The notes under the pieces were generated by a model. The model worked only from the letters and a program-made list of their open reading frames with translations, was not told the origin of the DNA and did not search any database. Shown one piece after another: positions 2,550 to 20,185 of a stretch of 20,185 nucleotides of DNA. Each line of letters opens with the position of its first letter. Within the stretch, counting starts at the first letter, position 1. Source of the stretch: a virus. The position numbers were made by a program, and so were the translations under genes. The stretch is from the IMG/VR virus record IMGVR_UViG_3300037674_000773, positions 1 to 20,185 of that record; one strand, given 5' to 3'.

Positions 2550-3257
2550 ATGCAAGGAAAGTTGAAGTTTTTATTAAACATTTTTATTGTCTGTCTTATG
2601 TGGTACATTCCATTTAAGCTTGTAAAATCTGTTAAAAAGCAGAACTACTTAGATCATAGGTTTGATGCTTTTATCGGTTCCGTAGACTACTATACTGCTG
2701 AAGAAGTAATCTCTGACCTGAAAAAAGCCGCTATAGAAAATAGAGTAAAAAAAGAAATTACTATAGGGATTAATAGTCCTGGTGGATCTGTTCATGCAGG
2801 GTTAGAAATTCTGTCTGAAATGAAACATCTACAGTCTAAAGGATATAAACTTAAATGTTATGTAGGTAATGCGTATTCTATGGGTTTTGTTTTATTAGCA
2901 TATTGTGATGAAAGGATAGGAAAATATGCTTCTACTTTTATGCACCACCTAACTCAAATAGGATATGGTAGACCAAAAAGAACAAAGCACAACAAAAAGA
3001 CTTTTAAAGCTTTAGACTTTTTTGATGGCTTATTAATTAAAGACATAGAAAAAAGATTAAAATTAAAAGATAAAGAACTATTTAAAATTATAAAAGATGA
3101 TAAATGGTGGAGTGCTAAAGACGCTCTTAAAGCTAACATAATTGATAAGATAGAGAGCTTTACTTTTTATAAAAAGAAATATAGAATATTAATAAGTTTC
3201 CTGGAGAGAAGCAATGGCAAAAAAATCGGCAGAAGCCCCCAAGAAGTTGGCATGTAA
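2550..3257 (+). CDS. Membrane-anchored ClpP-like serine protease
   Basis: A 235-residue protein that opens with an uncleaved-looking hydrophobic segment, roughly residues 5-25 (LKFLLNIFIVCLMWYIPFKL), followed by lysines, as in a signal anchor. The ClpP fold follows: INSPGGSV at 74-81, the nucleophile loop NAYSMGFVLLA with Ser110, and TFMHHL with His132. The C-terminal WWSAKDALKANIIDKIE resembles the terminal ClpP strand. The catalytic Asp is not at the expected spacing; Asp183 or Asp184 is the nearest candidate. A basic tail follows. The serine side is conserved and the acid uncertain, so activity is likely but not assured. It may act at the membrane or associate with the soluble paralogue. 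Its last 44 bases overlap the next gene. Confidence 0.75.
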   Translation: MQGKLKFLLNIFIVCLMWYIPFKLVKSVKKQNYLDHRFDAFIGSVDYYTAEEVISDLKKAAIENRVKKEITIGINSPGGSVHAGLEILSEMKHLQSKGYKLKCYVGNAYSMGFVLLAYCDERIGKYASTFMHHLTQIGYGRPKRTKHNKKTFKALDFFDGLLIKDIEKRLKLKDKELFKIIKDDKWWSAKDALKANIIDKIESFTFYKKKYRILISFLERSNGKKIGRSPQEVGM

Positions 3258-3516: not shown

Positions 3517-3718
3517 ACATAAGATTTTAGATACCTTAGAATATTTTCTAGAAAGATACCTAAAAGCTGCTGAAGGTCATAGCGAAGCAAGCGGCTTAGA
3601 AGGTGTTGTTATAGTACAATTTATAGAGCAATTAAAGTGGATTCGTCAAGATCATAAGAGATTGTCTGATCTAAACAAACCAAGAGTGATAGGAGCCGAA
3701 GATGGGCAAGAAGAATAA
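3497..3718 (+). CDS. Small helical protein of unknown function
   Basis: A 73-residue protein predicted as two helices (about residues 4-27 and 36-60) with a polar acidic tail. There is no recognisable motif, signal peptide or membrane segment. The gene overlaps the preceding gene by 20 bases and the following oxygenase gene by 17, so its position suggests translational coupling. An AGG-containing stretch about 8 bases upstream is only a weak ribosome site. Its place two genes before the large terminase would allow a terminase accessory role, but there is no helix-turn-helix and I do not assign one. Confidence 0.55.
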   Translation: MKLTTDRHKILDTLEYFLERYLKAAEGHSEASGLEGVVIVQFIEQLKWIRQDHKRLSDLNKPRVIGAEDGQEE

Positions 3719-4535
3719 AGGTAAAAAAGTACCTGGTATTAGTGTTTTTAATGATCCCAAGAAATTTACTGAAGAGGCTAAGTTTCACTTACTTCAACCA
3801 TTTGGTCCAGCCGTTGGTATGGTAAAAATGCCCAAAGCTATAACTCAGAAGTTATTGGAGTTGACTGATAAGATACTGTCAGATAAAGATAGAGTAGATT
3901 GGGGTAAAAACCTAGTAGGTCAGATTAACGAAGAGCCTTGGGTGTCTAATGAAGCTTTAGAAGAAGCTGGGCTTATGGAACCTTTAAGAACCTGTGTGTA
4001 TCAATACGTTACAGCGTCATTACAGAGGCAGGGTATAATGGACGATCTAGAGCAAGTTGGTGTACATCTAGATCATATGTGGGCAGTTAGTCAGTACGAA
4101 AATGAGTATAACCCTGTTCACTTCCATACCTACTGCGACGTTTCCTGTGTTATGTATTTAAAAATACCTGATTTTAAAAATAGAATGAAAGAGGGCGAAC
4201 TTCCAGCTTATAAAACTAATAAAGATGGTTTTATTGAACTTATTTATAAAGCAGCGGATACTAACGGACAAGAAAGAGGTACTATGTTAGTAACTCCAGA
4301 GGAGGGTATGCTATTATTATTTCCTTCTAATTTGCTACACACAGTCTATCCTTTTAAAGGTGATGAGGAGAGAAGGTCTGTAGCTTTTAATTGTCATTGG
4401 TCTGCAATCAAGAAAAACGGCGCAGCCTTTGATAAATCTGTTCGATTCCCTTCTGATCAAAAGAATGAAAAATATTTAGAAACATTAGATAAAAAGAACG
4501 AGGTTTCTCGTTATGCAGTCGAAGATAACAAGTAA
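3702..4535 (+). CDS. 2-oxoglutarate/Fe(II)-dependent oxygenase-like protein
   Basis: The 277-residue protein has the jelly-roll signature of putative phage 2OG-Fe(II) oxygenases (the 2OG-FeII_Oxy_5-like group). NPVHFHTYCDVSCVMYLKIP at 137-156 supplies the proximal iron ligands His140 and His142 in the H-x-H form used by this group. GMLLLFPSNLLHTVYPF at 202-218 supplies the distal His213, and Arg224 or Arg225 in ERRSVAFN is placed to bind the 2OG carboxylate. The family hydroxylates protein, nucleic-acid or small-molecule substrates; the substrate here is unknown. The basic N-terminus (MGKKNKGKK) may contact nucleic acid. It directly precedes and overlaps terL by 23 bases. Family membership is well supported, but specific function is not. 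Confidence 0.75.
   Translation: MGKKNKGKKVPGISVFNDPKKFTEEAKFHLLQPFGPAVGMVKMPKAITQKLLELTDKILSDKDRVDWGKNLVGQINEEPWVSNEALEEAGLMEPLRTCVYQYVTASLQRQGIMDDLEQVGVHLDHMWAVSQYENEYNPVHFHTYCDVSCVMYLKIPDFKNRMKEGELPAYKTNKDGFIELIYKAADTNGQERGTMLVTPEEGMLLLFPSNLLHTVYPFKGDEERRSVAFNCHWSAIKKNGAAFDKSVRFPSDQKNEKYLETLDKKNEVSRYAVEDNK
4497..4512 (+). promoter_or_regulatory. Hairpin covering the terL ribosome binding site
   Basis: AACGAG (4497-4502) and CTCGTT (4507-4512) form a perfect 6-bp inverted repeat around a GTTT loop, ending directly before the terL ATG at 4513. The only Shine-Dalgarno-like sequence for terL, GAGG at 4500-4503, lies in the left arm and the loop edge. The hairpin sits inside the end of the oxygenase gene, so ribosomes finishing that gene would melt it and could couple terL translation to it. 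The stem is short, so this is tentative. Confidence 0.35.
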
Positions 4536-14295: not shown

Positions 14296-17200
14296 ATGGC
14301 TATACAAAAAGATACAGTTTCAATTCCTTTTCTAAAGGGAATAAATACAAAGATAGACCCTCAACAAGAACAGTTAGGTTCTTTGACTCGGTTAAGGGAT
14401 GTTAAATTTACTAAAGTTGGTAGTATAGAAAAAAGGTATGGGTATGAAATGATAACCCAAGATATCTCAGCTATCACTGACTTAGATACCGATATGAAGT
14501 TAAACCTTATAGATCCTCTTTCAGTTAGAGGTGCTGGAGATACGCCTGTTGTTATTACAAAAAATATGATATGTAAATACACAAAAGCAGATAGGAAAAC
14601 ATACAATACTTCCGCCTATACCCCTTTAAAATTTCAAGAATTACCACGCCCCAATGATAATGATCTTCATGTAAACTCTCAAACAATAGTATATGGAGAT
14701 TTATGTTTTGGACTTCATACAAGAATATTGCAACCTGGGATTTTGGCAGCGCATATTGAAATTTTTGACATTTCAACTGACACCCCTACCAGATTGGTGA
14801 GACCCCATATTCTAAGTTTAAATATGACTGGTACTGCATTTCCTAATTCTATAGACGGTGGAAGTACTTATGGTGCTTTTTCCTACACAGATATTACAAG
14901 TGCTAATGGTAGAATGATAATTCATGAGGACCGATTAATTGTTACTGTAACAGACGCTCTTGGCAATTTATTTTATAAAACTTGCGATCCTTATAATTTT
15001 TCAGATGTTTTAAATAGTCAAATGGCAGTAGAATCTTCTGGTAGAGATGGGGGATGGATTCCAGTTTATCAAGGGCAAATAAATGCAACAAAGAATGTTT
15101 ACGATATAGAAAGTGATGTTGGTGGTATTATATTATTAGCTACTAAAACTGTATCTACTGATAACACTATAGCTAGAAAGTATGGAAGAAATATAGGTTC
15201 AATTCATAGTGATTTACATTTATATTACTCTTATAGTTTGCAGTGGGGCTGGACATTTACTGCTGATGCTGTATGTCTTACTAGAGTAGGAGATGATCCA
15301 CCAGGAAATTATAATAATAATGATCTTCAGCATGATTTAGTCGCAGCAATGGTCGCTGATAATGTGATAACTATTACTGCAACAAATCAGCGTTTTGACA
15401 AAAACTATGAATGGACAAAAACATTAACTTCAGGTATAACTGATGCAAGATTTATTAGTGTGATTCCAAATGCTAATCTATTTTCTCAAAGTTGGATAAA
15501 TCCTTCTACAACAGACGCTACTAATATTTACTTTGATGTTTTTGTTCAATATAGAAAGACTGGAGACCCTGCACTTGCTACTATAGACCATCTTCAATTT
15601 ACGGACAATACAAGTGGTACTAGGGCTGATGCTTTTTTAACTACAAATAATTTTGACTCTGGAACTTTAGATAATGTTAGAGAAGGAGATTGGAGTACAG
15701 TTACATTTGACAGTCTAGAACCTTGGGCTACAGACTTTATCGTTGCATGGGAGTTTATCCCAGATTATACTAGTTTTAGTACTCCTTTAGCAGAAACAGT
15801 TATGGAAGATTTTAAAATAGGACTGGGTATAGCAGGGAGAGCTTTTCAAATTAAATGGGGAGAAGATGAGCAAAGAAAATGGGATGCTGATATGGTTCCT
15901 TGGATTCACAAAACTGGTCAATGGGTTCAACCTTTTTCTTCAGAATCTCAATTAGGATCTGCCTTTTATTTTATGGCACTTGCTGGACCATATAATAATT
16001 ATGGTCCCCCTGTTACCACTAGTACTACGTCTGGTGATGGGTTAAATAGATACTCTAAGTGGACTGGAATCTTAGCATATGGTATTGGCGGTGGAGATTT
16101 AGAAACAGGAACCGCTGGAGTTCCTAGTCTTTCTGAGGTTCCTTATTATAATAGATTTGGAAATAAATGTGTTCTATTTCCCTATACAGTACAGTCAAGA
16201 GTAACTACAGAGGATGTTTCTTCTGAAGCTGCAGCTTTTACAGCTTTTTATAATACAGAATCTGCTACTATAGCTAAAATACACTACGATCAAGGTATTC
16301 CTAATCAATCTAAAGAAATTGCTGATAGTTTATTTATTCCTGGTGGAATGGTAAATAAGTATCAAGCAGGGCTTACTCATGAAGCTGGGTTTTTACAATC
16401 TCCTCATAGATTATACTTGTATTTAGGCGGAGCTACGTCTATGACAGAAGTGTCTACAGCTAGTCCAACTTTTGAAAAAGGTGATATTTATAATTATGTA
16501 GCTGTTTATTCAGATAGGGATTCTTCAGGTAGAATTAATAAATCTAGTATATCTAAACAATTGCAAGTTACTATAACTAATACTAGTACTAATACTGGAT
16601 ATGATGGAATAAATTTATTAATACCTATGAATGTGATTACTAATAGATTAGTTTATGGAATGCATGATATTGAAGTATATCGAACTACTAATAATGGAAC
16701 AGTATATTATAAAGTATCGGGGCAAAATTCTACATTATCCCATCCTTATTTAGCAAATAATGAGCAAAACTATTTTATAGCATTTAGAGATACAATAACT
16801 GATGATGATCTTACTAATAATGAACTATTATATACAACAGGTGGGGTTCTTGAAAATACTCCAGGTCCTGCATGTTCTATAATGGAAGTTTACAAAAATA
16901 TAGTATTTATGGCAGGATTAGAAAATCCATATGCAATACAATACAGTAAAGAAGTAGGCTATAATACTGCTTTAGATTTTAATGATACTCTTTTATTTGA
17001 GACTCCCACTATAGGTGGACCTATTACCACACTTAAAGGAATGGACGATAAGTTATTTATATTTAAGAGTAGTTCTATTTACTTTATTGCAGGTGGACAG
17101 AATAACTTTACCTCATATCTTCGAACTAGGTCTGGGCAAGCAACTGATATTGAATTACCTATTCTTTCTGCAGATATTGGTTGTGTTAATAAAAATTCTT

Positions 17201-18288
17201 GTGTTCTTACTCCTATTGGTATAATGTTTAAATCTAATCGTGGTATTTATCTTGTTAATAGATCTAATATGTCTTTAGAATATATAGGAGCACCAGTTCA
17301 AGCCTATAATAACTTAGAAATTACTGATGCTACATTATTTGCCAAAGTTGGAGAAATTAGATTTATCACTAAAAGAGCAGAAACTCTTGTTTATAATTAT
17401 GAAAGAGATGTTTGGTATACTTTTACAGGTGTAAGTGGTAATTCTCAAACTGTTATAAATGATGAATTTTTTATGGTTTCAGATAGAAATTTAGTATTAA
17501 AGGAAGTAGAGGGGACTTATACCGACGTAGGTAATCCTATAACTGTAGGATTAGAAACAGGTTGGATGAGTTTTGCCAAAGTACAAGGATTTCAACGTGT
17601 TTATAGAATGTTATTACTTGGAAATTACAAATCTAAACACCAAGTTAAAATAAAAGTAGCGTATGATTTTAATGATTCTTGGGTAGATGAATATATAATA
17701 GAATTAACTGATCCTAGTACTATATATTTTAAGCAAACACCAGAGGGTGCTGAACAAGACCAGATATCGGAGTGGGTTGATTCTCAAGGTAAACGTGCAG
17801 ATCCAAGCGAATTGTTTTCATCGGAATTTTTTGGTGGACCTGTTGACGTTACTGCTGATACCGCAAGAATTTTTAATAAAGGAACTAATAATAACTTTCC
17901 TTTTCATACTGATGGTGTTAGAGATCTTGATCCAGACCCTGTGCCTGGTGTTCTTGGTGATCCTTCTACTCAATTTAAAGCCGACGGCGGCGACGGCGAA
18001 GGCTTTGCTGCTTATGAAGTAGTAGGAACTGCTTCTGATTGGTATGATCCATATACACAAACATATCCCCAAGATATGACTAAAAAGTTTGGTACTAATC
18101 AATTACAATATCAATTTAGAATTAACATGAAGAGACAAAAATGTGAAGCTATAAAAGTATCAATAGAAACTCTTCAAGATTCAGATCAAAGAGGAGAAGG
18201 CGCAACCTTTTCTAATATAAGCTTTTTAGTAGGAATCAAAAAAGGCGATTATCGTATTAAACAAAGTAGAGTCAAAGGAACGCAATAA
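14296..18288 (+). CDS. Tail nozzle (tail tubular B-like) protein, very large
   Basis: A 1330-residue protein. The N-terminus PFLKGINTKIDPQQEQLGSL and onward to KVGSIEKRYGYE (11-51) is the opening of podovirus nozzle/stabilisation proteins, which list bound sites in a beta-propeller. Later it has GDIYNYVAVYSDRDSSGRIN near 728-747 and IEVYRTTNNGTVYYKV near 790-805. VYKNIVFMAGLENPYAIQYS and TLKGMDDKLFIFKSSSIYFI (about 866-935) match the propeller blades seen in this family. Nozzles close the tail tube until infection. T7 gp12 is 794 residues, so this one is much longer; the extra beta-rich material lies mainly between residues 150 and 700 and near the C-terminus. It is followed with a one-base overlap by the gp13-like gene, which supports the T7 order. 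Confidence 0.72.
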   Translation: MAIQKDTVSIPFLKGINTKIDPQQEQLGSLTRLRDVKFTKVGSIEKRYGYEMITQDISAITDLDTDMKLNLIDPLSVRGAGDTPVVITKNMICKYTKADRKTYNTSAYTPLKFQELPRPNDNDLHVNSQTIVYGDLCFGLHTRILQPGILAAHIEIFDISTDTPTRLVRPHILSLNMTGTAFPNSIDGGSTYGAFSYTDITSANGRMIIHEDRLIVTVTDALGNLFYKTCDPYNFSDVLNSQMAVESSGRDGGWIPVYQGQINATKNVYDIESDVGGIILLATKTVSTDNTIARKYGRNIGSIHSDLHLYYSYSLQWGWTFTADAVCLTRVGDDPPGNYNNNDLQHDLVAAMVADNVITITATNQRFDKNYEWTKTLTSGITDARFISVIPNANLFSQSWINPSTTDATNIYFDVFVQYRKTGDPALATIDHLQFTDNTSGTRADAFLTTNNFDSGTLDNVREGDWSTVTFDSLEPWATDFIVAWEFIPDYTSFSTPLAETVMEDFKIGLGIAGRAFQIKWGEDEQRKWDADMVPWIHKTGQWVQPFSSESQLGSAFYFMALAGPYNNYGPPVTTSTTSGDGLNRYSKWTGILAYGIGGGDLETGTAGVPSLSEVPYYNRFGNKCVLFPYTVQSRVTTEDVSSEAAAFTAFYNTESATIAKIHYDQGIPNQSKEIADSLFIPGGMVNKYQAGLTHEAGFLQSPHRLYLYLGGATSMTEVSTASPTFEKGDIYNYVAVYSDRDSSGRINKSSISKQLQVTITNTSTNTGYDGINLLIPMNVITNRLVYGMHDIEVYRTTNNGTVYYKVSGQNSTLSHPYLANNEQNYFIAFRDTITDDDLTNNELLYTTGGVLENTPGPACSIMEVYKNIVFMAGLENPYAIQYSKEVGYNTALDFNDTLLFETPTIGGPITTLKGMDDKLFIFKSSSIYFIAGGQNNFTSYLRTRSGQATDIELPILSADIGCVNKNSCVLTPIGIMFKSNRGIYLVNRSNMSLEYIGAPVQAYNNLEITDATLFAKVGEIRFITKRAETLVYNYERDVWYTFTGVSGNSQTVINDEFFMVSDRNLVLKEVEGTYTDVGNPITVGLETGWMSFAKVQGFQRVYRMLLLGNYKSKHQVKIKVAYDFNDSWVDEYIIELTDPSTIYFKQTPEGAEQDQISEWVDSQGKRADPSELFSSEFFGGPVDVTADTARIFNKGTNNNFPFHTDGVRDLDPDPVPGVLGDPSTQFKADGGDGEGFAAYEVVGTASDWYDPYTQTYPQDMTKKFGTNQLQYQFRINMKRQKCEAIKVSIETLQDSDQRGEGATFSNISFLVGIKKGDYRIKQSRVKGTQ

Positions 18289-18644
18289 TGAAAATGTGGA
18301 GCGATTATCAAAAAGAGTTAAATCCTAATACTGAAATATATGAGGATGAAAACGGTTTTATACAATTTACTTATGAAACCGATGGCAAACCAAGAATTTT
18401 TATAGACCATGTTTTTCTTAAAAAAGAAAAGAGAAAAGCATTGCAAGGTGATGCAATAAAACTATATTGGGTTATTGTATACGATAGAGCAAAGGAATTA
18501 GGTTGTGAGTTAATAGCCACCTCTGTTTGTACAAGGTCAATGAAAGGTGCAGAAAAGAGGTTGTATATGCACTTTAGATCAGGCTGGAAAATTAGTCATC
18601 TAGGTGGCTCAGTTATTTATTTATATAAGGAAATGCCGAAATGA
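18288..18644 (+). CDS. Degenerate GNAT-fold protein in the T7 gp13 position
   Basis: This 118-residue protein resembles the core of the GNAT fold. Strand RIFIDHVFLKKE (36-47) leads to KRKALQGDAIKLYWVIVYDR (48-67), then AKELGCELIATSV (68-80), and a final AEKRLYMHFRSGW (88-100) before a last strand. The acetyl-CoA loop consensus R-x-x-G-x-G/A is replaced by KALQGDA, so coenzyme binding is doubtful. T7 gene 13, directly after the nozzle gene, encodes a small protein of this fold that is needed for virion assembly; the position here is identical. I therefore infer an assembly role rather than an enzyme. The start overlaps the nozzle stop by one base, and the stop overlaps the next start as ATGA. 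Confidence 0.6.
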   Translation: MKMWSDYQKELNPNTEIYEDENGFIQFTYETDGKPRIFIDHVFLKKEKRKALQGDAIKLYWVIVYDRAKELGCELIATSVCTRSMKGAEKRLYMHFRSGWKISHLGGSVIYLYKEMPK

Positions 18645-20185
18645 AATTATTAGGTAAGAAAATTTATAGATCAGGGTTGAAGCCATATAAAAATGGCTTA
18701 GGAATGCACAATAGGGATAGTGAAGGTAATTATAAATCTTCTTCTTCTGGTTGTTGCGTTCATCCAGATACTAGAATCTCTATGGCAGATGGAACTACCA
18801 AAGCCGCTAAGGACATTCGCATAGGCGACGAGCTTATGACTCAAGCTGGTAAAGGTAAAGTAGAGATCATAGCAAATCCTGAATTAGGCTATAGATCTTT
18901 ATACTCATACGGTAGAGGTTCTTACTTTATAACAGGTGACCATCCCATTCATGCCGATGGAGAATGGAAGTCTCTTATGCCTGGGTTTTCTAAGCTAGAT
19001 TATGGTGTTGAATGTACTAGACTAGAAAAAGGAGCAGTCTTAACTCTTATTAATGGAGATAAGGTTAAGTTAGAAAAAATAGAAGGAGAAACCAATAATC
19101 CCAATTTAGTGTTATATGATTTTCACATGGATGGGGATGAGGATGCTAATCATACTTACTTTGCTAATGGCTTACTAGTCCATAACGGTGGCGGCGGCGG
19201 CGGCGGCGGCGGCGGAGGTTGTGGTAGTAGATCTAAACCTAAAGGTCAAGGTCATTACGATGACCAAGGAGCTTACCACTATGGTACTGACTACTCTTCT
19301 GGAGGGCAGTATCACCATTCTACTGTTGATACTGGAACTGAAGGATCTGGTCAAGGTTTGCAATCAGATTCAGAAACTATTCAGGAACAGCAGGATTTGG
19401 CAGATAGTATAGATGAAAGTTCTCTTAATGTGGATACTGGGGAATATGTTGGTACTAGACCTGAAGATAGACCAATGGGAGAAGGGATAGCAGAGGGCAT
19501 AGCGCAAAACGAGGCAGAGACAACTACTGGAACAGACCAAACTCCAGAAACCCAAGAGGGGCAGGTTACTGGGGGAACTCCAGCAGAGCAAGTAGATAAT
19601 TATGATTCTCTCCAAGAAGAAATTCAACAAGCAGAAGTAGATAGTCAATATGATCCAGTACAAGCTGGAGCAGGTTATGAAGATCCTAGCCAATACCAAG
19701 ATATGCCTGGTTTTGATGCTGGTCAAGATCCTGCAACAGTCCAACAAAACTTTTTAGATGCTCAACAACAACAAAATCCACAATTAGCTCAACAACCAAT
19801 AACTGCAGAGGAAGTAGGCGATTTAGAATTTAAACCTGCTTGGACCGACGAAATGGAAGAAGGAGCGCAACTTGATATCGATACTCAAACTACAGCAAGT
19901 GAAGAATATGAAGATTCTGCTCAAGAATATGAAGATGAAGTAGCTGCTCAAGAAGAGGCAGGATTTTTAGCCAACTATGAAGAAACTGAAGGACAACATG
20001 CACAAACAGAGTATAACGAACAATTACAAGAAATGTGGGATGATCCAGATCAAAGAAACGATTTAACTGCGAACGAGATCCAACAATTACAGAATCAGGG
20101 CTATATTACAGGTGAACCTGTTCCTGAAACTTCCAGCGGTGGTGGAGGCGCAGCAGATCCTACGGCTGTAGATACTACAACTATG
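18641..20185 (+). CDS. Hint/intein-like self-processing protein, open at right edge
   Basis: This frame runs 515 codons without a stop to the window end, so the 3' end is missing. Residues 1-38 form a basic then Ser-rich leader. Residues 39-182 are a Hint domain (see 18755-19186). Residues 183-193 are eleven glycines, followed by Cys194 and a His/Tyr/Gly-rich stretch. From about 235 to 515 the protein is a low-complexity acidic region rich in Gln, Glu and Asp with short repeats such as EYED. No enzyme fold is visible after the Hint domain. AAGGAA about 8 bases upstream supports ATG 18641, which overlaps the upstream stop as ATGA. It occupies the place of the internal or ejection proteins in T7-like order. 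A virion protein cleaved or spliced by its own Hint domain is the inference; the product after processing is unknown. Confidence 0.8.
   Translation, partial: MKLLGKKIYRSGLKPYKNGLGMHNRDSEGNYKSSSSGCCVHPDTRISMADGTTKAAKDIRIGDELMTQAGKGKVEIIANPELGYRSLYSYGRGSYFITGDHPIHADGEWKSLMPGFSKLDYGVECTRLEKGAVLTLINGDKVKLEKIEGETNNPNLVLYDFHMDGDEDANHTYFANGLLVHNGGGGGGGGGGGCGSRSKPKGQGHYDDQGAYHYGTDYSSGGQYHHSTVDTGTEGSGQGLQSDSETIQEQQDLADSIDESSLNVDTGEYVGTRPEDRPMGEGIAEGIAQNEAETTTGTDQTPETQEGQVTGGTPAEQVDNYDSLQEEIQQAEVDSQYDPVQAGAGYEDPSQYQDMPGFDAGQDPATVQQNFLDAQQQQNPQLAQQPITAEEVGDLEFKPAWTDEMEEGAQLDIDTQTTASEEYEDSAQEYEDEVAAQEEAGFLANYEETEGQHAQTEYNEQLQEMWDDPDQRNDLTANEIQQLQNQGYITGEPVPETSSGGGGAADPTAVDTTTM
18755..19186 (+). other. 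Intein-like Hint domain (no homing endonuclease)
   Basis: The 144-residue domain starts with Cys39 in CVHPDTRISMADGTTK and the KDIRIGDELMT strand (intein block A). It continues with SYFITGDHPIHADGEW, whose T-x-x-H (Thr98, His101) is the block B signature. It ends with YDFHMDGDEDANHTYFANG and LLVHN, giving block F His171 and the terminal His181-Asn182 pair. These residues carry the N-S acyl shift and Asn cyclisation of inteins. The size leaves no room for a homing endonuclease. The residue after Asn182 is Gly, not Cys, Ser or Thr, so it resembles A-type bacterial intein-like domains, which can cleave and sometimes splice. Confidence 0.85.
19187..19219 (+). repeat. GGC microsatellite encoding eleven glycines
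   Basis: GGT, eight tandem GGC codons (19190-19213), GGA and GGT encode Gly183-Gly193 directly after the Hint domain. The run is almost pure G+C in an AT-rich genome and can slip by whole codons without changing frame, so its length may vary between related phages. Confidence 0.95.

Follow-up and report, generated by a model that had tools for sequence, protein, structure and literature searches.

The stretch of DNA examined here, hereafter the window, comprises an entire IMG/VR record of 20,185 bases, which ends within an open reading frame starting at position 18641. No stop codon interrupts the 515 codons of this frame before the record ends, and the encoded protein must therefore run on past position 20185. 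The start codon overlaps the preceding stop codon (ATGA), and the same start is found in relatives, whose products begin with MKL(V/I)GKKLYRTG. The features that the analysis relies on, all on the plus strand, are as follows.

14296..18288, + strand: 1330-aa tail protein, synteny anchor, matched in 52 loci of relatives
18288..18644, + strand: acetyltransferase-like gene, synteny marker (tblastn to L161 and L186; the L142 homologue matches Pfam Acetyltransf_1)
18641..20185, + strand: virion-region protein of 515 aa interrupted by a Hint domain, its 3′ end lying past the contig
18641..18754, + strand: N-terminal flank, residues 1-38, with the conserved motif MKLLGKKIYRSGLKPYK and a Ser-rich linker; motif also found in 14 relatives where the gene occupies the equivalent position, 13 of these without a Hint
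18755..19186, + strand: Hint domain, residues 39-182 (144 aa), A-type BIL-like, without an endonuclease domain (Pfam Vint, phage-Hint profile, AlphaFold2 with Foldseek, PDB profile search)
18755..18757, + strand: Cys39, predicted N-terminal nucleophile, aligned with Cys1, which is kept in 84% of non-redundant phage Hints without a +1 nucleophile
18932..18943, + strand: block B, T98-G-D-H101 (T kept in 81% and H in 86% of the same set)
19151..19153, + strand: block F His171 (81% conserved in the same set)
19181..19186, + strand: His181-Asn182, predicted C-terminal cleavage residues, Asn182 at 19184-19186 (100% in the same set)
19187..19219, + strand: Gly11 tract, residues 183-193, +1 residue Gly; Gly-rich linker present in Hint-free relatives too
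19187..20185, + strand: C-terminal flank, Gly-rich and then an acidic low-complexity chain, ending at the contig end

Cys194 (19220-19222) directly follows the Gly tract, and the first Lys after the Hint domain is at +17. Residues Gly183 to Gly193 are encoded by a GGC-rich triplet tract; GGC-rich triplet runs are of a type whose length changes easily.

Identification of the Hint domain

A first-pass annotation, made from the letters alone, had proposed a Hint domain at residues 39-182, and this was borne out by each search applied to it. Pfam Vint (PF14623) matched the open reading frame above the family cut-off (E value of 5.6e-7), and a profile built from other phage Hints, with the window excluded, aligned end to end with residues 39-182 at 57.5 bits. 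The AlphaFold2 model of the domain reached a pTM of 0.77, with core blocks mostly at pLDDT >90, and its best PDB matches in Foldseek were the BIL2 domain (top match; E value of 1.5e-10, TM 0.73), the gp41-1 intein, and the Clostridium thermocellum BIL. When the PDB was searched with a 40-Hint profile led by the window, the best match was again a BIL, 2LWY (4.8e-30). The residues that had been pointed out, namely, Cys39, T-x-x-H, His171, His181-Asn182, eleven glycines, and Cys194, all lie where they were placed, and Cys39, T98/H101, H171, H181, and N182 each align with conserved Hint positions.

Type A bacterial intein-like (BIL) domains are defined by His-Asn without a +1 nucleophile (PMC4031507). 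Since Gly183 takes the +1 position next to His-Asn, the window Hint is, as judged from its sequence, an A-type BIL-like domain that combines the Hint fold, at 144 aa within the expected size of about 130-150 aa, an N-terminal Cys, and His-Asn with the lack of Cys/Ser/Thr at +1, in agreement with the first-pass reading. Assignment to the class 1 inteins was rejected, because these carry Cys/Ser/Thr at +1, where the window has Gly183, and occupy a conserved functional site, while the window Hint interrupts a Gly/Ser linker that varies among relatives. A search of the annotated phage collection with the whole open reading frame returned no relatives, and the corresponding search of IMG/VR matched only terminase inteins.

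The window Hint is divergent. In the tree it occupies a long branch (end branch of 1.7) that could not be placed among the other Hints, it carries Ala56 at a position that is Ile in all other aligned phage Hints, and its −1 residue is Cys38, as opposed to the Gly usual in relatives. The long branch and Ala56 would suit an inactive or dispensable passenger, i.e., a domesticated or decaying intein remnant tolerated in a flexible linker, and Gly/Ser linkers do tolerate insertions. We nevertheless consider such a remnant very unlikely, as the catalytic positions are all intact within a confidently modeled fold and, across divergent phage Hints, His-Asn is invariant and Cys1 is kept in 84%.

The host protein and its glycine-rich linker

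By its capsid and portal, the window phage is SU10-like, and searches with capsid and terminase yielded about 140 loci of relatives. In many of these, the order of the 1330-aa tail protein homologue, the acetyltransferase-like gene, and the counterpart of the window protein is retained, and the N-terminal motif MKL(V/I)GKKLYR(T/V)GPLK(L/C)FK or a variant of it occurs in twelve loci and three extended contigs. Downstream of the linker, the relatives carry helices, a GTETSDSI-x-A-x-LSDGEF motif that matches tape-measure profiles, the match being limited to this short motif, and a short C-terminal helix; the window frame is cut off upstream of the corresponding place. The AlphaFold2 model of the L160 relative is mostly helical, with pLDDT <50 across almost the whole of residues 1-53, and at a pTM of 0.30 the whole model was too weak for a fold search. 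The more distant relative L186 has a Peptidase_S74 chaperone match. By synteny, the window protein corresponds to a virion protein of SU10-like marine phages that is predicted to be helical and tape-measure-like. The virion-gene neighborhood proposed before is supported. Likening the protein to the T7 internal ejection proteins is only approximate: what the relatives show is the short tape-measure motif and, in L160, a mostly helical model, and neither the window protein nor its relatives matched a T7 internal-protein PHROG or Pfam family.

The far end of the window holds several genes of separate interest. Two different ClpP-like proteases (715-1281 and 2550-3257), each found in more than 50 relative loci, lie upstream of the terminase; both keep a plausible Ser and His, and the product of 2550-3257 has a hydrophobic N terminus. 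Between them lies a complete FabF-like beta-ketoacyl synthase (1292-2542; Pfam E value of 1e-39), which occurs in just three loci of relatives (L204, L205, and L241) and is thus an auxiliary metabolic gene of a small clade. A 2OG-Fe(II) oxygenase (3702-4535; PF13759), matched in 65 relative loci, sits just before the terminase.

The linker itself probably predates its insert. A GGG lies within the first 75 residues of 10 of the 14 distinct relatives, some of which are partial at a contig end; no Hint is seen in nine of the ten, and L444, the remaining one, carries it at another site. The N-terminal motif followed by a GGG-containing linker is kept in 9 of 13 distinct Hint-free relatives, where the longest Gly runs are Gly17 (L166) and Gly12 (L197). 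Because the linker is Gly-rich in proteins that lack a Hint, the poly-Gly represents the native linker of the protein and not a feature made by the Hint, and the window Hint is most likely seated in a pre-existing, Gly/Ser-rich, predicted-disordered linker just after the conserved N-terminal motif. The same runs in L166 and L197 speak against the earlier view of the oligo-Gly as an amine specific to the cleavage product; the accompanying idea of a sortase acceptor, for which the Gly N terminus was the one ground, is unsupported.

Two of 50 records of relatives carry a Hint, i.e., L440 (in the terminase) and L444 (in the window-protein orthologue). The former, the terminase of the L186 record of a SU10-like relative, has an intein-like insert in its P-loop region, and inteins and BIL-like Hints thus coexist in the SU10-like phage group. 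In the latter (G004, L444:660-3905), the Hint sits at a different site from that in the window, preceded by EGMKAQVDAARAGAK and followed by FGGGKAGGGEIFKKYAKGG, whereas the Hint-free sister G002 (L442) reads EGMKAQIEAARAGQARGGGGKAAGGAIYKKYAKGG at this place. Aligned on the Hint-free ...AARAGQARGGGGKAAGGAIYKKYAKGG, the L444 protein shows ...AARAGAK, then the Hint, and then FGGGKAGGGEIFKKYAKGG; this insertion, too, is at a Gly-rich stretch, and joining the flanks restores the Hint-free layout. The L444 Hint is 55% identical to the N-terminal Hint of the L104 J-like tail protein, and the tree groups both (99/95). The AU test rejected a tree that makes the window Hint sister to that of L444/L445 (p-AU of 0.001, with long branches involved), which indicates two separate acquisitions. 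Members of a single gene family thus seem to have gained different Hints on two occasions, each at its own Gly-rich site.

Glycine-flanked Hints in environmental phages

In six-frame translations of viral DNA, a Hint ended exactly at His-Asn-Gly6 in 18 of the 121 places listed, a count in which eleven Gly-flanked Hints belonged to the training set of the profile, with L113, L091, L025, L050, L083, and L098 among those outside it. The reversed control, Asn-His-Gly6, had a Hint in 0 of the 120 places listed, and a chance origin of the motif is thereby ruled out (12 versus 2 with a looser regular expression). A query with the Hint alone, stripped of its flanks, matched at least 349 viral stretches in one lineage, and the best 80 of these loci, comprising 48 distinct Hints, served for the statistics that follow. 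Cys1 and His-Asn, neither of which was part of the search pattern, are present in 48/48 each, and Cys/Ser/Thr at +1 in none. Since both are conserved, most phage Hints without a +1 nucleophile are probably active and would excise themselves through BIL chemistry, leaving the flanks ligated, cleaved, or a mixture of the two. The Hint adjoins a GGG in 45 of the 48 and has Gly at −1 in 46; by comparison, such flanks occur in 0/21 phage Hints with Cys/Ser at +1 and in 1/66 related bacterial Hints. The suggestion that Cys194 acts as a displaced nucleophile is not supported: no conserved Cys follows the Gly tract, any Cys within +1 to +15 occurring in just 7 of the 63 Gly-flanked Hints from phages.

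Many of the host proteins are tail-tip J proteins with a mostly N-terminal Hint, as indicated by a J signature after the Hint in 21 distinct cases and by the match of L449 to the GpJ FNIII-A family (1.5e-39); other hosts are Gly-rich fibre-like proteins (L059, L072, L093, and L113). An hGxGG motif both precedes and follows 36 of the 48 lineage Hints (best 80 of at least 349 loci), many of them in J proteins. About ten changes of the Gly-flanked label are needed to account for the tree, at least four being forced by well-supported branches, and the association of Hints with Gly therefore probably arose more than once.

Several other arrangements came to light. On the minus strand of L025 (7057-7482 and 8589-9023), two proteins start with a Hint in which Cys1 is replaced by Gly and His-Asn is kept, one of them continuing into Gly7 (HN-G7); both are candidate N-terminal caps capable of C-terminal cleavage only. 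Tail proteins of L046, L090, L110, and L112 have two tandem N-terminal Hints, with a separate Gly tract after each. Two to three consecutive Hints near the C terminus are found in phage proteins of L267, L268, L270-L272, L274-L278, and L304, with Lys/Arg/Leu/Ile/Tyr at +1 and some ending in HN-K or HN-KK. Bacterial, mostly alphaproteobacterial, Hint relatives (L528-L589) have Asp at +1 in 32/66, often as HN-DS, and their host proteins are large, with lengths often near 1,700 aa.

Among the matches listed from the annotated phage collection, which were mainly helicase and terminase inteins, there was no tail-tip Hint like the Gly-flanked ones, and in the open-access literature we found no paper on Hints placed in the Gly tracts of J proteins of the tail tip or of tape-measure-like proteins. 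The presence of BIL-like Hints within glycine tracts of virion proteins from phages thus seems to be little described. The domain itself is of a known kind, A-type BIL-like, and the interest lies in its repeated setting in such tracts. We tentatively suggest that Gly-flanked BIL Hints may constitute a processing module that is specific to phages and has been acquired repeatedly by tail-tip J, Gly-rich fibre, and tape-measure-like proteins; the glycines to either side would then provide an unhindered thioester and amine for nucleophile-free splicing or for timed N-terminal maturation during assembly. Earlier descriptions place BIL domains in the hypervariable regions of bacterial proteins that are themselves not conserved, and their purpose is unsettled (PMC7765530). 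If the tail proteins of hundreds of environmental phages hold BILs within their Gly tracts, virion maturation offers a concrete place to test the role of BILs, and protein engineers could draw on phage BIL Hints as a natural source of domains that ligate at Gly junctions.

Predicted processing and comparison with known systems

For type A BILs, splicing has been proposed to begin with a Cys1 thioester, continue with Asn cyclization, and end when the amine so released attacks the thioester, although mostly cleavage products are obtained (PMC4031507). All residues needed for this route are present in the window Hint. We consider it reasonably likely that a tape-measure-like protein acquired an A-type BIL Hint within its native Gly/Ser linker and that this Hint removes itself, with ligation or cleavage of the flanks. 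Cys39 would make the N-S acyl shift, Asn182 would cyclize and free the Gly183 amine of the C-terminal part, and this unhindered glycine amine would attack the thioester, joining residues 1-38 to residue 183 onward; unligated cleavage products would be the alternative outcome. Self-removal as such, expected in the first-pass annotation and predicted here from the intact catalytic positions, is very probable, and the processing may be used in virion assembly. Ligation as the main outcome for the window protein is plausible, if somewhat short of probable: it is favored by the retained Cys1 and by the L444/L442 empty-site comparison, and Gly at both junctions may favor it as well, while the lack of the usual −1 Gly and the long unplaced branch of the window Hint speak against self-removal with ligation. 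C-terminal cleavage that exposes Gly is possible, ligation of the flanks being at least as well supported.

A pure cleavage device would employ Asn182 cyclization, and perhaps hydrolysis of the Cys39 thioester, to release a C-terminal part starting with oligo-glycine, with the N-terminal motif shed or acting on its own. Apart from the sortase step, this corresponds to the core of the first-pass interpretation. The predominance of cleavage among type A BILs is consistent with this, and the recurrence of hGxGG after the Hint in J proteins means that cleavage alone would leave a complete-looking N terminus. In L025, HN-G7 is kept despite the loss of Cys1, which would allow C-terminal cleavage only. 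The repeated J motif and the L025 case suggest that some Hints do act as cleavage devices. For the window protein we find this rather unlikely, because Cys1, needless for C-terminal cleavage alone, is retained in all 48 lineage Hints (best 80 of at least 349 loci), the N-terminal motif and the body form one chain in Hint-free relatives, and the L444 Hint splits its protein in the middle, with flanks that match the uninterrupted sister.

For the best structural match, Tetrahymena BIL2, isopeptide formation with Lys has been reported (PMC8616854). By analogy, the Cys39 thioester could pass the N-terminal peptide to an amine, either on a Lys side chain or on a second protein, so that an isopeptide or crosslink would form in the virion, and Lys does occur within +1 to +15 in 40/63 Gly-flanked phage Hints. 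Such Lys residues, however, are also found in Hint-free Gly-K tracts (J of L021 and the linker of L166), the first Lys after the window Hint comes too late to fall within this range, and no acceptor is known, which makes such a transfer highly improbable.

Several known systems come close to the window protein and its Hint. Tape-measure and internal virion proteins share with its relatives the tape-measure-profile motif, a mostly helical make-up, and the position in the virion cluster, whereas the window copy stops before the motif and the setting is SU10-like. Phage class 1 inteins, such as gp41-1 and the terminase inteins, have in common with the window Hint the fold, Cys1, and His-Asn, but the latter lacks the +1 nucleophile and a conserved active-site insertion point and has Gly-rich flanks. 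BIL2 of the Tetrahymena BUBL (6TMM and 6Y75) is the nearest structure to the window Hint model and differs in its ubiquitin-like flanking domains and in the isopeptide bond that it makes (PMC8616854), nothing similar being known for the window Hint. With the A-type BILs, represented by the C. thermocellum BIL (2LWY), the window Hint shares the mini-Hint without endonuclease, Cys1, the block B T-x-x-H, His-Asn, the lack of Cys/Ser/Thr at +1, and a location in a variable region; in contrast to them, it lies in the Gly/Ser linker of a phage virion protein, has Gly at +1, and shows low sequence identity (22% in the structural match).
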